NCBI GenBank assembly: GCA_025774865.1
Contig: JALGZO010000572.1
Location: 1-5,733 of the forward strand
Reading direction: 5' to 3'
Origin: a bacterium
GTDB lineage: Bacteria > ARS69
DNA length: 5,733 bases
Shown here piece by piece: positions 2 to 5,733 of this stretch (position 1 is the stretch's first letter; each line of letters begins with the position of its first letter). The notes beneath the pieces are model-generated. The model was given only the letters and a program-made list of their open reading frames with translations, had not been told where the DNA came from and ran no database searches. Position numbers and translations under genes: made by a program.

Positions 2-952
2 ATCGCCTGGAGAGCCGCGAACGACCACCGGTGCACGGTATTCTACCAGCCGAATTTCGCGTTCAACCTGATGACTCGGCGCATCAAGGACGGTGACATG
101 GATGGCGTCGATCTTTCGTCCTTGCGCCTGGTACTCAACGGAGCGGAGCCTTGCTTTTGGGAATCGCACGAGATGCTCGCCAATCGTTTTTCGCGGTGGG
201 GGCTCTCGCGCGACAGTCTGGGCATCGTTTACGGTATGGCGGAGGTGACGAACTCCGTCTTCGGGGCAGGTCACCGGGAGCCGATCGTCGTCGACGGTGT
301 TGATCGGTTCGTGCTGCAACGCGAGGAACGGGCCGAACCGGTCTCGGTGGACTCGCCGAACCTGCAGCGTTTTCTCGGCGTCGGGCGGGCACTGCGCGGG
401 ACGGAGTTCAAGGTCGTGGACGACGACCGAAACGAAGTGGAGGAGAGACGGATCGGTGAGGTGGCGATCCGGTCCGAGGCGCGAATGCACGGCTATCATC
501 GCAACGAAGAGGCGACCGCAGCTTCCCTGGCGCCCGACGGCTGGTACTACTCGGGCGATATGGGCTACCGGGTCGGAGACATCCTGTTCATCACCGGGCG
601 CAAGAGCGACGTGATCATCATCGGCGGCGTGAACATCTACCCGCAGGATGTCGAGAAGATCGTCGCGGAGCATCCGGCGTCGGTGCCGGGACGAGTCGCG
701 GCGATCGGAGTGGACGATGCGGAGATCGGCACCCAGAAGATGGTGCTCATCGTCGAGTCGAAGTCGACGGAACCGGACGTGCTCGCGGAACTCGCGCAGT
801 ACGCGCGCACGGAGATTTCACAGCGGTTGAACGTCGTTGTGAGTCGCGTGGTGCACGTGCCGCACATGTGGCTCATCAAGACATCGAGCGGCAAGATCGC
901 ACGAATCCCGAACTACGAGCGGCTCCAGGTGCTCGAGAAGGAGGGGTCGTGA
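2..952 (+). CDS. Acyl-AMP ligase, FAAL-like adenylate-forming enzyme (C-terminal part, truncated at the left edge)
   Basis: This enzyme family activates a carboxylic acid with ATP to an acyl-adenylate and loads it on a carrier-protein phosphopantetheine (FAAL branch) or on CoA. The frame is open from base 2, so the start and the ATP-binding P-loop motif lie outside the window; the methionine codon at base 71 is internal. Visible motifs, in order: QPNFAFNL and VLNGAEP in the ligase core, YGMAE (bases 230-244, the A5 region), YYSGD (SGD at 551-559), the hinge and A8 motif GRKSDVIIIGGVNIYPQDVE, and TSSGK near the C terminus with the catalytic lysine at 893-895. PNFAF, NGAEP and YPQDVE are characteristic of FAALs, and the A8 motif is unlike that of D-alanine ligase DltA. 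The C-terminal subdomain looks complete. The stop overlaps the GTG start of a carrier-protein gene, which is the likely acceptor of the acyl group. FAAL versus acyl-CoA ligase is not settled, because the FAAL-specific insertion cannot be assessed here. Confidence 0.9.
   Translation: MAWRAANDHRCTVFYQPNFAFNLMTRRIKDGDMDGVDLSSLRLVLNGAEPCFWESHEMLANRFSRWGLSRDSLGIVYGMAEVTNSVFGAGHREPIVVDGVDRFVLQREERAEPVSVDSPNLQRFLGVGRALRGTEFKVVDDDRNEVEERRIGEVAIRSEARMHGYHRNEEATAASLAPDGWYYSGDMGYRVGDILFITGRKSDVIIIGGVNIYPQDVEKIVAEHPASVPGRVAAIGVDDAEIGTQKMVLIVESKSTEPDVLAELAQYARTEISQRLNVVVSRVVHVPHMWLIKTSSGKIARIPNYERLQVLEKEGS
938..944 (+). promoter_or_regulatory. Shine-Dalgarno site deciding the GTG start of the carrier-protein gene
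   Basis: AAGGAGG lies 4 bases before the GTG at 949, inside the last codons of the ligase gene. It supports the GTG start over the in-frame ATG at 868, which would add 27 residues that resemble no carrier-protein sequence. Confidence 0.75.
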
Positions 953-1230
953 CGGCGGAGCGCACAGAGATCGAACGGGAGATCCGCGCGTACGTGCTGC
1001 GGGAGTTCCTCCCGGGCGAGGGTCCGGAAGTCCTGGACCGCGCCCCTGGTCTCATGAGCGGCGGTATTCTCGACTCGCTCTCCATTCTCTCCCTGGTCGA
1101 TTTCCTGGAAGAGCGGTACGGCGTCGAGCTGAAGGCGCACGAGCTGGACGTCGGGAACCTCGACACGATCGAAGACATTGCGGATCTCGTCCGGGGAAAG
1201 CTCGGGGACGCGAAGTCCGAGGGCGCCTAA
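949..1230 (+). CDS. Stand-alone acyl carrier protein (phosphopantetheine-binding)
   Basis: A 93-residue carrier protein that would hold an acyl group as a thioester on 4'-phosphopantetheine. The attachment serine is Ser43, in SGGILDSLSILSLVDFLEE (residues 37-55), which matches the (D/L)DSL motif at the start of helix II. The following ERYGVEL and the acidic helix with NLDTIEDIADLV (residues about 71-82) are the usual helix II-III and helix IV parts. The length is normal for an ACP. The GTG start is chosen because of the AAGGAGG site just upstream and because it gives a standard ACP N terminus. GTG overlaps the ligase stop as GTGA, so the two genes are probably translationally coupled, and the ligase is the natural loading enzyme. 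The ACP stop TAA interlocks with the stop of the convergent MBOAT-SGNH gene, so there is no room for a terminator between them. The acyl cargo is unknown. The carrier could serve the MBOAT (a DltC-like role) or a biosynthetic cluster to the left. Confidence 0.9.
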   Translation: MTAERTEIEREIRAYVLREFLPGEGPEVLDRAPGLMSGGILDSLSILSLVDFLEERYGVELKAHELDVGNLDTIEDIADLVRGKLGDAKSEGA

Positions 1231-3695
1231 GGGATCGGTCGCAAGAGCCCGGGGTAGTCCACGAGGTGGTCGAAGAGGGTGTCCGCGATGAGACGATGCC
1301 CGAGGGCATTCGGGTGGAAATCCCACGGGGCGACCCGAATCGCCGCGCTATCCCAGTCCCCGTAGACGTCCTCGAGGATGATCGTCTGGAAGCCGGTTTC
1401 CTCGGCCAGCTCGATGAGCTCGCGGTCCAATCGCGTCATCTCGATCTGGCGGATCTTCGGAAGGAAGACATTCAGTGGAACGGCATCGTGGCGGAGACAG
1501 GCGTCGACGATCTTCCCGTAACCCCAGCGATTGAGCGCTCGCCGTTCGCCGCGGAGCTGCCGCCGGATCTCTTCCGCGGACTGCGACGGGTCCACTGCGA
1601 TCTCGCCCAACAGGTCCTGCAGGACGGTCGACCGCGCCGCGGTCCCTTCGGCCAAATAGTCCGCGAGTCGTTCCAGTTCCCGGGACTTCATCCCGGTGTG
1701 GGACACGTAGATGACGACATCTGGCTCGAACTCGAACACGCGCTCCTCGCAGAGAGCGACATGGTCGGCAAGCGTGTAGCCTCCGACCGCGAAGTTCAGG
1801 ACCTCGTACCGTTCGAACTCGTCGCGGGGTGGCTCCATGTCGAGTCGACTCTCGAGAATCGCCTCGAACCCCTCGTCGTTGTCGACGCCCCATCCCATCA
1901 CGTAGGAGGATCCGAGCAGCGCGATCCGAAATGTGCCGTCTCTCTTGGGCCGCTCGTATTCGAGATCGCGCATCCCCCACGCGTTCGTCCGGATGATGGT
2001 GTCGCGAAACGGGGTCTCATTCGAGGGGATGAGCTCGTAGCCGGGAACCCCGCCCGTCCGAAACACGGCGTCGGTCTCCCGGAACGGTGTCTTTCCGGCC
2101 GGCCTCGAGAGCTGCATCTCCCAGATGCGCGAATTCAGGCGGTTCATCTGGAGGAGCCCCTCGTAGTATCCGTGGATGACCTGGTCCTCGTCCCACTGAC
2201 TGAAGCGATCGTCGTCGATCGTCGCGAGAATGCTTCCGACCGAAGGACCGAAACGCTTCTGCACATTCGGCGTCGACGCGAGGAGCAGTACTGCCGACAG
2301 TCCGATCACGTACACGGGCCGGCCGGCCCGCCGAGCCACGCCGGCGGGCGAAGCGCGTCGGGTCAGGAGTCCGCCGACGAAGGCGACGGCTACGAGGGCC
2401 GCGGCCAGCATGGCCCATTCGCGTCCGCCCCCCGCGTTGCTCGCGGTGACGTTCCACCAGGCGGACACCGACGGCGTGTTCCACATCGCCCAGAGGACGG
2501 AGATCACGCAGAAGACCCCCACCGTCCGCCAAGAGCGAACCTGCCGCTCCCGGAAGGTGTGCGGCTCGGCGGACGGACGCCGGCGCGGCCCCGCCTGCGC
2601 CTCGCGGAGAGCCGCGAGCAGGACGAGCGCCCCCAGAACGCCGAAGAACAACGCGTCGCCCGACGTCACGAGGAACGAGCCGCGCAGCCAGAACCACTGG
2701 TACGCGTGCAGCAACGTCGTTGCCGTGAACACGGCCGCCACGGCCAGTGCGGTCGCTCGGGCGGGACCTCTCTTGCGGAATCGCATCATGACCGGGTAGT
2801 AGACGATCTTCGTCATGAAGGCGGTCCAGTAGATGTTGATGCGATGCCAGAAGTCCGTGAAGCTGGACGCGAAGAAGTACCGGCGGTGCGTCTCCGGCAA
2901 ATTGAACCCGAACAGACACAGGATTCCGATGATCAGATGAAAGAGCCCGGAGATGCGGATGTAGAGGAAATAGCTGCCCACGGTGAAGAGCAAGAGATCG
3001 GAGAAGCTCGCAACCCCCGTGGGGGCGGGAAGAACGTGCATGTAGACGAGGCGATACAATACGATCTGGAACAGTCCCCGGGCGATCCACGCCAGACCCT
3101 TCTGGTAGATGCGGAATGAAGCGTCGTCGTACCAGGTGCGGATGAAGGTGCGGGAGTCGACGGCCGGAAAGAGCGGAAAGCACACGTTCGGAAGAAGAAA
3201 GAAGTAAGCGAGCCGCGACCATCCTTTCGGCTCCTGTCCGTGGCGCAGGTCGTAGCAGTAGATGATCATCCGGATCATGAACATCGAGCCGAGGATCGGG
3301 AGCATCACCGCGGCGGCGTCGGGGAGGTCGATCTGGCCGGCCCGCGCCGCGGCGAGCCCCGCGCCGGCGGCGAGCAGCACCACGATCCTCGCACCGAATG
3401 ACAAGGGCAGATGGCAAACTGCAATGAGTGCGAGCCCCGCGGTGACCAGCCACATCGCCGGAACCGCGCCGAGCACCGCGCCGGTTCCCACCCAGGAGAG
3501 AACGACGAACGTGGGTAGGCGGACCTTCTTCGGGATGACGGAGTGAATCAGGAACCCGACGAAGATGACCGGGATCAGTCGGTCGAACTGCCGCAGCTCC
3601 TCGATACGGTAGACGTGCGCAACCCACAGAACGAGTGCGAGCTGGGCGACGACGGCCAGCCACCGCGCCCCCCGCCCCGCGGCGTCCGAGCTCAC
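1227..3695 (-). CDS. MBOAT O-acyltransferase fused to a C-terminal SGNH/GDSL-like domain
   Basis: An 822-residue membrane protein predicted to transfer acyl groups from the cytoplasm to an envelope acceptor. Residues 11-365 are a multi-pass MBOAT region. It has DFWHRINIYW (281-290), matching the DFWRRWNxSW motif of the AlgI/DltB group, followed by a VYYPVM segment. The probable catalytic histidine is His330 in TTLLHAYQWFW. Further hydrophobic segments lie near 391-405, 428-445 and 461-474. The soluble part after about 475 would then be extracytoplasmic. It is SGNH-like: LLGSSYVMGWGV (593-604) with nucleophile candidate Ser597 in a GSS variant of GDS, NFAVGGY (634-640), and WDFHPNALGH (791-800) with Asp792 and His794 as the other triad candidates. 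A clear GxND block is not visible. The GTG start overlaps the HAD-gene stop as GTGA, and GGGAG lies 8 bases upstream. The frame stays open further upstream, but that part reads as low-complexity, arginine-rich shadow sequence. The fusion joins DltB-like and DltD/AlgJ-like roles in one chain. The acceptor and acyl group cannot be told from sequence. Confidence 0.88.
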   Translation of the reverse strand: MSSDAAGRGARWLAVVAQLALVLWVAHVYRIEELRQFDRLIPVIFVGFLIHSVIPKKVRLPTFVVLSWVGTGAVLGAVPAMWLVTAGLALIAVCHLPLSFGARIVVLLAAGAGLAAARAGQIDLPDAAAVMLPILGSMFMIRMIIYCYDLRHGQEPKGWSRLAYFFLLPNVCFPLFPAVDSRTFIRTWYDDASFRIYQKGLAWIARGLFQIVLYRLVYMHVLPAPTGVASFSDLLLFTVGSYFLYIRISGLFHLIIGILCLFGFNLPETHRRYFFASSFTDFWHRINIYWTAFMTKIVYYPVMMRFRKRGPARATALAVAAVFTATTLLHAYQWFWLRGSFLVTSGDALFFGVLGALVLLAALREAQAGPRRRPSAEPHTFRERQVRSWRTVGVFCVISVLWAMWNTPSVSAWWNVTASNAGGGREWAMLAAALVAVAFVGGLLTRRASPAGVARRAGRPVYVIGLSAVLLLASTPNVQKRFGPSVGSILATIDDDRFSQWDEDQVIHGYYEGLLQMNRLNSRIWEMQLSRPAGKTPFRETDAVFRTGGVPGYELIPSNETPFRDTIIRTNAWGMRDLEYERPKRDGTFRIALLGSSYVMGWGVDNDEGFEAILESRLDMEPPRDEFERYEVLNFAVGGYTLADHVALCEERVFEFEPDVVIYVSHTGMKSRELERLADYLAEGTAARSTVLQDLLGEIAVDPSQSAEEIRRQLRGERRALNRWGYGKIVDACLRHDAVPLNVFLPKIRQIEMTRLDRELIELAEETGFQTIILEDVYGDWDSAAIRVAPWDFHPNALGHRLIADTLFDHLVDYPGLLRPIP
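2316..2348. repeat. GC-rich palindrome and adjoining hairpin inside the MBOAT-SGNH gene
   Basis: GGGCCGGCCGGCCC at 2316-2329 is a perfect 14-base palindrome. Overlapping it, CCCGCCG (2327-2333) pairs with CGGCGGG (2342-2348) across an 8-base loop. Together they cover codons of about residues 450-460, just before the last hydrophobic segment and the SGNH domain. The sequence fits Arg/Gly/Pro/Ala codons in GC-rich DNA, so it may be incidental. Confidence 0.4.
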
Positions 3696-4432
3696 GTCAT
3701 GAGCTCCCGAAAGTCCTCGACGGTGGGGATTCCCCCGGCCAGCGTTGGCGCATCCTTCGGATGAAGAGTCCGCACCATGACGGCGATCGCCTCCGGTACG
3801 GCCCTGACCAGCGGGTTGAGCACGCGGGGATCGTTGTCGACGACGAGGTCGATCGGACCCTTGCGACGAATGAGCGGGACGGTCTCGATCTTGAACTCGA
3901 CGTCGTTGAGATCGAAGACGGGCTTCATGAGGAGCTGGGTCCGAATCGTGCCGATCGGAAAGCCGGCCTCGTGGAGAGAGCGGCACGTCCCGAGGTACAT
4001 CTCGGGAACGTGCCGACCGGTCATGTAGTTGAGCTCCGCGCCCTGATCCCACCAAGCCCGGGCCGCGTCCACGGCGCCGTCCAGCGGCGCGTCGTGCTCG
4101 AGGTAGTCGCTCCCGAAGAACTGCCTCGCCCACGCCTCCCGTAGACGACCGAGCGTCTCTTCGTCGTCGATTCCGTGCTTACGCAACGTATCGACGGGGT
4201 TATACTCGAACGCCTCTTCGGCCAGATCCCGGATGGTTCTCGTGATCTCGGCGTCGCCGCCGAAGAGCGCGCGGGCCTGGTCGAACAAGATCTGCTTCGT
4301 TCGCGGGACATTGTCGAAGAGCGTGCCGTCGAGATCCAGAACGATCTGGGGCACCTGGCCGCGGTCACGGCCGCGCCGGATACGTTCGTCGATTTGTCGG
4401 GCCAGATCACCCGTGGTGCCCGCTTCTGTCAT
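3692..4432 (-). CDS. HAD-superfamily hydrolase (putative phosphatase)
   Basis: A 246-residue protein with the HAD catalytic motifs in order. Motif I is VLDLDGTLFDN (residues 31-41), with nucleophile Asp33 and general acid Asp35. Motif II is MTGR, with Thr138. A motif III lysine is Lys170 (LLMKP) or Lys181. Motif IV is VVDNDPR, with Asp199 and Asp201 for magnesium binding. Residues about 45-120 form a helical cap-like insert. There is no signal peptide, so it should be cytoplasmic. Members are mostly phosphatases, but the substrate cannot be read from this sequence. The ATG at 4430-4432 is chosen because AAAGGA stands 6 bases upstream and the protein begins normally from there. The same frame stays open upstream only as antisense of the methyltransferase gene. 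The stop overlaps the GTG of the MBOAT-SGNH gene (GTGA), so the two are likely co-translated. A role in preparing or recycling a phosphorylated precursor for the acyl-transfer step is a guess from context only. Confidence 0.88.
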   Translation of the reverse strand: MTEAGTTGDLARQIDERIRRGRDRGQVPQIVLDLDGTLFDNVPRTKQILFDQARALFGGDAEITRTIRDLAEEAFEYNPVDTLRKHGIDDEETLGRLREAWARQFFGSDYLEHDAPLDGAVDAARAWWDQGAELNYMTGRHVPEMYLGTCRSLHEAGFPIGTIRTQLLMKPVFDLNDVEFKIETVPLIRRKGPIDLVVDNDPRVLNPLVRAVPEAIAVMVRTLHPKDAPTLAGGIPTVEDFRELMT

Positions 4433-4480: not shown

Positions 4481-5305
4481 ATGGCCGGGAACTCTCGAAA
4501 CGACGTCTTCTCGCGCACGGAGTACCGGCGCGTCATCGCCTGGCCGGAGCGGATCCGTCGAGAGGCACCATTCTTCGATCGCGTCTTCGGCGAGGCCTCG
4601 CGAGCGCCTGACGACTCCCGTCCCCGACGCCTGCTCGACGTCGGCTGTGGCACCGGCGAGCACACTCGTCACTTCGCCGAGCGTGGTTGGGAAGCGGTCG
4701 GGATCGACGCGGCCGAAAACATGATCGAGGACGCGGAAGCACTCGCCGGCGAGACCGATTCGGGAGGAACGGCTCGGTACGAGCTTCGCGACGCGGCCGC
4801 GGCTGCCGTACTTCCGGAGGCGCCGTTCGATGCGGCGATATGTCTCGGCAACACGATGGCGTTCGTCGAGACGCGCGAGGAGATGGACGCGTTTCTTCGT
4901 GGGGTGGCGGACGCCCTCGCGTCGGGCGCGGAACTCTTGATGCAGCTCCTCAACTACGAGCGCATCGAGGCTCTGCCCGTACGGGCGCTTGGCGTCAATG
5001 TGCGACCTCTGCCCGAGGAAGAAGGCGAAGGGGAGATCGTTTTCGTCCGCGTGCTCAAGTCCGTCGGAGACGGGACCGTGGACTTCTACCCCATCACGTT
5101 GACGTTGCGCCCCGATCGTGACCCGCCGGTGGAGATGCGTTCGTCCCGGCGGGCGAAGCACTACGCATGGGTGCGCTCCGATCTCCAGTCGGCACTCGTC
5201 GCCGCGGGCTTCGCGAGCGACGTTCGGTTTCTCGGCTCGATGACCGGCTCGCCGTACGCGCCGATGGAATCCCACGATCTCGTGGTGGTCGCTCGCAAGC
5301 AATGA
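4481..5305 (+). CDS. Class I SAM-dependent methyltransferase
   Basis: A 274-residue Rossmann-fold methyltransferase that would use S-adenosylmethionine. The glycine-rich motif I is LLDVGCGTG (residues 51-59). The acidic residue binding the SAM ribose is Asp76 in AVGIDAAENMI. Asp104 in YELRDAAA is a candidate for the adenine-contacting position. FDAAICLGNTMAF (116-128) matches motif IV. The N-terminal helix, with IAWPERIRREAPFFDRVF, is the usual lid leading into such domains. The C-terminal part (about 165-274) is strand-rich and probably forms the substrate-binding lobe; it carries no motif from which I can name a substrate. There is no signal peptide, so it is cytoplasmic. The ATG at 4481 is supported by GAGAGGAA upstream and by the onset of a normal protein. 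The frame is open for 102 codons further upstream, but only as antisense of the HAD gene. Its stop overlaps the start of a TonB-receptor-like gene (ATGA), an unusual partner. Confidence 0.9.
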   Translation: MAGNSRNDVFSRTEYRRVIAWPERIRREAPFFDRVFGEASRAPDDSRPRRLLDVGCGTGEHTRHFAERGWEAVGIDAAENMIEDAEALAGETDSGGTARYELRDAAAAAVLPEAPFDAAICLGNTMAFVETREEMDAFLRGVADALASGAELLMQLLNYERIEALPVRALGVNVRPLPEEEGEGEIVFVRVLKSVGDGTVDFYPITLTLRPDRDPPVEMRSSRRAKHYAWVRSDLQSALVAAGFASDVRFLGSMTGSPYAPMESHDLVVVARKQ

Positions 5306-5733
5306 TCGCTACTACCATTCTTCTCGCCGCCTGTCTGGCGGAGGGCCAAGTTCTGTCGGCGGCGGGGGAACCTCTCGAGGGTGTCACGATCCTCGAGGTG
5401 CAGGGCGGACGCCCGCTCGGCGTGACGGACGGCCTGGGCCGGTTCCGGGTCGACGCCGGGGGGCCCTCCGGCGCCGGAGATGGCGGCGGTAGCTCGACGG
5501 AGGCCGTGCTGGAGCTTCGGGGCGACGATTTCACCCATGTGTTTCGCGTGGTGTGCGGCGGCCAGACGACGGTCCTCCTCCCTCCCGACGTCCGGCGGAT
5601 GGAGGCGGTCGAAGTGAGTGCGACGCGGCTCGAACGAACGTTCGAGAGCTCGGCGGCTCGGGTGGATCGTCTCGAGGAGCAGGAATTGGCCGACGCGGCC
5701 GGCTCGGTCCCTTCGCTCAGCGCGGCCGTCCAG
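5302..5733 (+). CDS. Probable TonB-dependent outer-membrane receptor, N-terminal part (cut by the right edge)
   Basis: 144 codons of an open frame that continues past the window. After a short hydrophobic leader (residues 1-13), residues 16-50 read like a carboxypeptidase-regulatory-like domain: a GEPLEGVTILEV strand, then GVTDGLGRFRV. A glycine/serine-rich insert (53-66) and a strand pair follow. VEVSATRLE (103-111) and the next 30 residues look like the TonB-box and plug-domain start of TonB-dependent receptors, which import siderophores, vitamins or glycans across the outer membrane. The ATG overlaps the methyltransferase stop as ATGA, with no clear Shine-Dalgarno, so translation probably depends on coupling. 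The leader is odd: it has no basic residue after Met1 and is short, and it contains LAAC (8-11), a lipobox-like string with Cys11. The true start could therefore lie elsewhere, or export could be unusual. The barrel is outside the window, so the receptor call rests on the N-terminal architecture alone. Confidence 0.72.
   Translation, partial: MIATTILLAACLAEGQVLSAAGEPLEGVTILEVQGGRPLGVTDGLGRFRVDAGGPSGAGDGGGSSTEAVLELRGDDFTHVFRVVCGGQTTVLLPPDVRRMEAVEVSATRLERTFESSAARVDRLEEQELADAAGSVPSLSAAVQ

Follow-up and report, generated by a model that had tools for sequence, protein, structure and literature searches.

What does a bacterium do with an adenylate-forming ligase, an acyl carrier protein, and an MBOAT acyltransferase fused to an SGNH domain when the three genes lie side by side? 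The question is raised by a 5,733-nucleotide stretch of DNA, hereafter the window, which is the whole of one contig (C576) of a fragmented genome from a phylum represented by five genomes in our collection. We propose that the three genes probably specify a carrier-dependent acyl-transfer system in which the fusion protein places the acyl group on an extracytoplasmic hydroxyl. The protein classes, the catalytic residues, the carrier–fusion linkage, and the predicted folds come from sequence and its comparison. From these we infer the chemistry of each step, which way the group is transferred, what the group is, and what accepts it.

The ligase, of the fatty acyl-AMP ligase (FAAL) type, is encoded at positions 2–952 of the forward strand. 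The gene is truncated at its 5′ end by the contig edge, and the 316 residues present are specified by its 3′ part. It overlaps by 4 nt the gene for a DSL-type acyl carrier protein of 93 residues (949–1230, forward strand, GTG start). The carrier stop in turn overlaps the stop of the convergent gene for the MBOAT–SGNH fusion, an acyltransferase of 822 residues (1227–3695, reverse strand, GTG start). The reading frames confirm these coordinates as a sequence-only reading of the window had placed them. Family matches, fold, and profile comparison support its further claim that four Dlt-like activities are packed into three genes.

The window ligase matches the Pfam AMP-binding family at 3.7e-14. 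Its best NCBIfam matches are fatty acyl-AMP/CoA ligases, and among its best solved-structure matches, most are FAALs. Thus, by closest sequence it belongs with the FAALs, which upholds the earlier description of it as FAAL-like rather than DltA-like. The carrier scores 20.9 bits against the Pfam PP-binding cut-off of 20.8 and carries the motif GGILDSLS, with the phosphopantetheine Ser within ILDS. As a single-protein query, it matches nothing among viral contigs. A PHROGs search also came up empty. Its nearest curated family is NF052616, at 89.6 bits and below the cut-off of 130. For this reason the ornithine-lipid OlsHI system was considered, but it was set aside, as the match falls short of that cut-off and no OlsH- or OlsI-like gene occurs among the recurring neighbors of the fusion loci.

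Evidence that the carrier and the fusion work together comes from relatives. The fusion alone, as a single-protein query, matches nothing among the genome contigs. A three-row alignment of its MBOAT part retrieves 182 fusion relatives, of which the loci of 78 were kept and examined. These loci are spread over ten phyla: Gemmatimonadota, Myxococcota, Acidobacteriota, Rhodothermota, Pseudomonadota, Verrucomicrobiota, Hydrogenedentota, Chloroflexota, Planctomycetota, and Calditrichota. In the 45 loci where the fusion is flanked on either side by 3.5 kb or more, the carrier stands beside the fusion in 42, and the full set of fusion, carrier, ligase, and an acyl-CoA-dehydrogenase-like gene is present in 37. 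The strict order fusion–carrier–ligase–dehydrogenase occurs in 34 of the 78 loci. From the fusion to the carrier start the median gap is 23 bp; where the two genes are co-directional, 44 of 45 cases fall within 130 bp. At ten control loci with ordinary MBOATs, the same carrier subfamily is never found (0/10), a control that is blind to other carrier subfamilies such as the one at locus L039, described below. Closely related Mesorhizobium or Microvirga species contribute many of the loci, so that the counts are not independent, and the breadth across phyla is the stronger argument. By the 45-locus tally, the association of ligase and carrier with the fusion is more than chance, and the sequence comparison strongly supports functional coupling of fusion and carrier, as the sequence-only reading had held. 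Fusion homologs regularly lacking a ligase and carrier, which would have spoken against that reading, were not seen; the pair nearly always adjoins the fusion.

Two observations on the relatives stand somewhat apart. Six loci (L099, L114, L117, L127, L133, and L172), mostly in Rhodothermota and Verrucomicrobiota, contain two to four tandem fusion genes without an adjacent carrier, and some of these genomes encode a prolyl ligase elsewhere. One fusion gene resides on the 1.4-Mb plasmid of Microvirga sp. VF16 (NZ_CP069356.1, 709045–711516).

Could the neighbors in the window nonetheless be accidental? The ligase and carrier might serve a lipid or lipopeptide pathway unconnected with the fusion, and the opposite strands, the commonness of FAAL–carrier pairs, and the position of the ligase's left end outside the window would all fit such an arrangement. 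That left end can be followed. Specifically, the end of contig C586 overlaps the first bases of the window exactly over 114 bp and supplies the N-terminal 287 residues of the ligase (locus L198, from about 4744). Beyond the ligase start, C586 carries a MATE-family transporter gene and a TPR/sigma-54 regulator, and among its inspected genes there are no polyketide synthase (PKS), nonribosomal peptide synthetase (NRPS), or lipopeptide genes. A PKS or lipopeptide cluster as the context for ligase and carrier is thus dismissed, and with it a circumstance that would have told against the earlier proposal. Moreover, this carrier subfamily nearly always adjoins a fusion, and in a set of 386 genomes the three proteins closest to the carrier all come from genomes that possess one. 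A fusion–carrier–FAAL order recurs at two Acidobacteriota loci, L154 and L110. The convergent layout, named earlier as a weakness, has a precedent at L137. We therefore regard chance adjacency as very improbable.

If the genes are coupled, is the fusion equipped for the task? Conservation was assessed in an alignment of 58 fusions, and on the same alignment a single AlphaFold2 model was built (predicted local distance difference test, pLDDT, 88.6; predicted template modeling score, pTM, 0.87). The MBOAT domain comprises residues 33–418 (2442–3599, reverse strand). Its best fold matches are DltB (8jem; Z 20.3 over 364 residues), PORCN (Z 18), and HHAT, and profile comparison by hhalign against seven ordinary MBOATs gives an E of 4e-19 over 379 columns. 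The comparison places H330 on the universal MBOAT His and N287 on the first His of the pair. H330 is present in 58 of 58 fusions and N287 in 57. Fold and catalytic His thus both assign this half to the MBOAT superfamily. No protein of the window's own genome passes the cut-off of Pfam PF03062, nor do 37 fusions including the window's; the miss is a shortcoming of the Pfam model, not of the fold. The AT3 domain PF01757 is not matched in the fusion, which has the MBOAT fold instead.

The SGNH domain, predicted to be extracytoplasmic, occupies residues 544–819 (1239–2066, reverse strand). It matches PF13472 at 1.3e-7, 0.1 bit under the cut-off, and the best fold matches for about residues 525–819 are SGNH esterases and CgnD. 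The superfamily's block I Ser corresponds to S597 (58/58), and block V is represented by D792 (57/58) and H794 (58/58). Besides H330, S597, and H794, the residues H253, D502, and Y511 are invariant across the fusions. One may ask whether this domain transfers acyl groups at all. It could instead strip groups off, as a hydrolase or an editing esterase, and leave the transfer to the MBOAT half alone, and its fold matches, mostly esterases and thioesterases, are compatible with such a role. However, known bacterial MBOAT/SGNH and AT3–SGNH systems use the SGNH Ser as a transfer intermediate (PMC12148441), and SGNH is fused to MBOAT in all 58 aligned members. A removing role is, in our judgment, hardly likely. 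The window's own genome also encodes a stand-alone SGNH protein (contig C38, L036:5764–6780), which is closer to the fusion's SGNH half than any other protein there (phmmer 1e-25).

In known MBOATs of this kind, the acyl group is received by the Tyr of an F-x-Y-x-x-F motif at the C terminus (PMC12148441). Six of the seven ordinary MBOATs end in [FLY]xYxxF. The motif is absent from its usual place, the linker, in the 58 fusions. There, between the last membrane helix and the SGNH domain, the fusions share a different motif, G-Y-Y-E-x-L, which reads GYYEGL in the window (residues 509–514; 2154–2171, reverse strand). Y511 is found in 58/58, Y510 and G509 each in 57/58, and E512 in 56/58 fusions. 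Conservation of the motif is 0.88 versus 0.51 for the linker, and it is in the top 20 for conservation among 816 six-residue windows. Residues 509–521, which contain it, form the sole stretch of the model with pLDDT under 50. From conservation and predicted mobility together, this loop is a candidate acyl-Tyr shuttle.

What, then, is the acyl group? In most relatives, sequence comparison indicates that it is loaded by a prolyl ligase and processed by a dehydrogenase, and the FAAL is the exception. The relatives' ligase belongs to the amino-acid adenylation domains; among solved single-domain structures, the one closest to it is the L-prolyl-carrier ligase 6o6e. Its pocket code, at the usual adenylation-domain positions placed by eye, is DLLYLALVC in 36 of 54 ligases, and the remainder differ at one residue. 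Structure 6o6e carries the identical nine pocket residues in the alignment, and the code is the same as that of PltF. The accompanying dehydrogenase is closest to PigA/RedW, the prolyl-ACP dehydrogenase 4irn, and PltE. Because a prolyl-type ligase is paired with a prolyl-carrier dehydrogenase, the relatives' acyl group is predicted to be proline oxidized on the carrier to dehydroproline or pyrrole-2-carboxylate, two products that differ in the number of oxidation steps, a distinction that sequence cannot make.

Only the window and the two Acidobacteriota loci have a FAAL in place of this pair. At L154 fusion, carrier, and FAAL stand in one row, and the FAAL is 63–70% identical to that of the window. 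At L110 the order is the same and the FAAL-type ligase is more distant. The window's own genome lacks the relatives' prolyl ligase (best match 27%) and has no close dehydrogenase (best match 39%). No prolyl ligase was found in the genome of L154, and the best that the L110 genome offers is an NRPS-like match of 36%. The FAAL thus replaces the prolyl ligase in these cases, and because the fusion tree requires at least two changes between loading types, the loading module was swapped more than once. A fatty acid is thus a plausible acyl group for the window alone. The suggestion of a group other than D-alanine, perhaps a fatty acid, consequently fares unevenly: the window's ligase favors it, and the prolyl ligase and dehydrogenase of most relatives do not extend it to the family.

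Taken in order, the proposed steps would be as follows. The FAAL-type ligase would activate its carboxylic acid substrate, of which a fatty acid is the likeliest, by adenylation and transfer it to the carrier's phosphopantetheine arm. The carrier would dock at the cytoplasmic side of the MBOAT, where H330 with N287 would move the acyl group across the membrane. The group would pass to Ser597 of the SGNH domain, probably via the invariant Tyr in the GYYExL loop, which is modeled as mobile, and the SGNH domain would put it on an extracytoplasmic hydroxyl, most likely that of a glycan. We favor this scheme because of the carrier–fusion linkage, the rows at L154 and L110, the replacement of the prolyl ligase by the FAAL, the catalytic residues, the model, and a further row at L039, in which FAAL, carrier, and MBOAT also occur together.

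Several observations weigh against this scheme. In the window, ligase–carrier and fusion lie on opposite strands and therefore do not form one operon, and tandem fusions occur without an adjoining carrier. The block III Asn of SGNH proteins is missing, position 666 being mostly H, T, or S; in this the domain resembles PC-esterases, which have W or H at that position (PMC2824669). The low-confidence linker, seen in one model, could be merely flexible. The FAAL variant is known from just three loci, whose fusions do not group together in a single clade. In several genomes the set lies among housekeeping genes, and beside the four genes no further gene recurs across phyla, an acceptor gene included.

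With regard to the acceptor, the fusion might release its acyl group onto a small extracytoplasmic molecule rather than a polymer, yielding a secreted small molecule or a modified lipid. The prolyl ligase and prolyl-carrier dehydrogenase are elsewhere natural-product enzymes (PltF, PltE, and PigA/RedW are the best matches), a polysaccharide neighbor is not fixed, and NF052616, the curated family to which the carrier comes closest, is one of ornithine-lipid synthesis. Yet the MBOAT/SGNH couples described to date modify envelope polymers (PMC12148441), and no additional biosynthetic genes recur beside the four. Moreover, the L154 set lies among asparagine synthase, sulfotransferase, deacetylase, and glycosyltransferase genes, and the Rhizobiales sets likewise lie among polysaccharide genes. 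On balance, we think a small acceptor unlikely.

How does the set compare with established systems? Dlt (DltA, DltC, DltB, DltX, DltD) is similar in having a ligase-loaded carrier, a DltB-fold MBOAT, and an SGNH-type domain that places the group; here too the carrier and adenylating-ligase genes stand beside the MBOAT. The differences are that MBOAT and SGNH are one protein whereas DltD is separate, that DltX and the F-x-Y-x-x-F at its usual place are lacking, that the ligase is not of the DltA type (FAAL in the window, prolyl in most relatives), that the fusions have Asn for the first His of the MBOAT pair, and that the set is found in mostly Gram-negative phyla. PatA/PatB and AlgI/AlgJ/AlgX share the MBOAT-plus-SGNH logic, possibly including an acyl-Tyr shuttle, but use acetyl-CoA as donor, have no carrier, and consist of separate proteins (PMC12148441), whereas here the domains are fused and a carrier gene adjoins. 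OatA and OafB combine a membrane acyltransferase with SGNH in one chain, but their AT3 fold is unrelated to MBOAT (PMC12423673), and they take acetyl-CoA without a carrier. PltF/PltE, PigA, RedW, and AnaB share with the relatives' sets the ligase code and a dehydrogenase beside the carrier. The window lacks these enzymes, and their product feeds small natural products, while in the relatives the genes adjoin an MBOAT–SGNH fusion. Finally, the row in genome G033 (L039:6695–10188) comprises a FAAL, a 78-residue DSL carrier, and an MBOAT, but this MBOAT is ordinary, unfused, and ends in FIYFQF, and the carrier belongs to another subfamily.

In the papers found, bacterial MBOATs are described only with separate SGNH partners, and with a carrier only in Dlt (PMC12148441, PMC12423673). 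A literature search that was poor in subscription journals returned no paper on this fusion set, and one that left those journals mostly uncovered returned nothing relevant on an MBOAT with pyrrole-2-carboxyl or with a FAAL. We tentatively suggest, at somewhat less than even confidence, that the set represents a third architecture of trans-membrane acyl transfer, present in at least ten phyla: a carrier-fed MBOAT–SGNH polypeptide that has an acyl-Tyr shuttle of its own and whose loading module can be exchanged, serving in most cases for proline to dehydroproline or pyrrole-2-carboxyl and here for a fatty acid. If so, bacteria of many phyla attach proline-derived rings or fatty acids to some target beyond the membrane, using a machine so far nameless. 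Because the MBOAT and SGNH sites sit in a single natural polypeptide, how the acyl group passes from one to the other can be tested directly, and the exchange of loading modules reveals which components determine the acyl group.

The remainder of the window lies upstream of the fusion. A gene for an HAD-like hydrolase (3692–4432, reverse strand) has a stop that overlaps the fusion start by 4 nt, and because of this overlap it is probably co-translated with the fusion. The hydrolase does not adjoin other fusions at the examined loci; we dismissed it as a member of the system because its neighborhood with the fusion is not conserved, and it may lie outside the system. Farther along, on the forward strand, are a gene for an S-adenosylmethionine-dependent methyltransferase (4481–5305; PF13649, 5e-15) and, cut at the contig edge, the 5′ end of a gene (5302–5733) for a TonB-receptor-type-like protein with a weak carboxypeptidase-regulatory-like domain.

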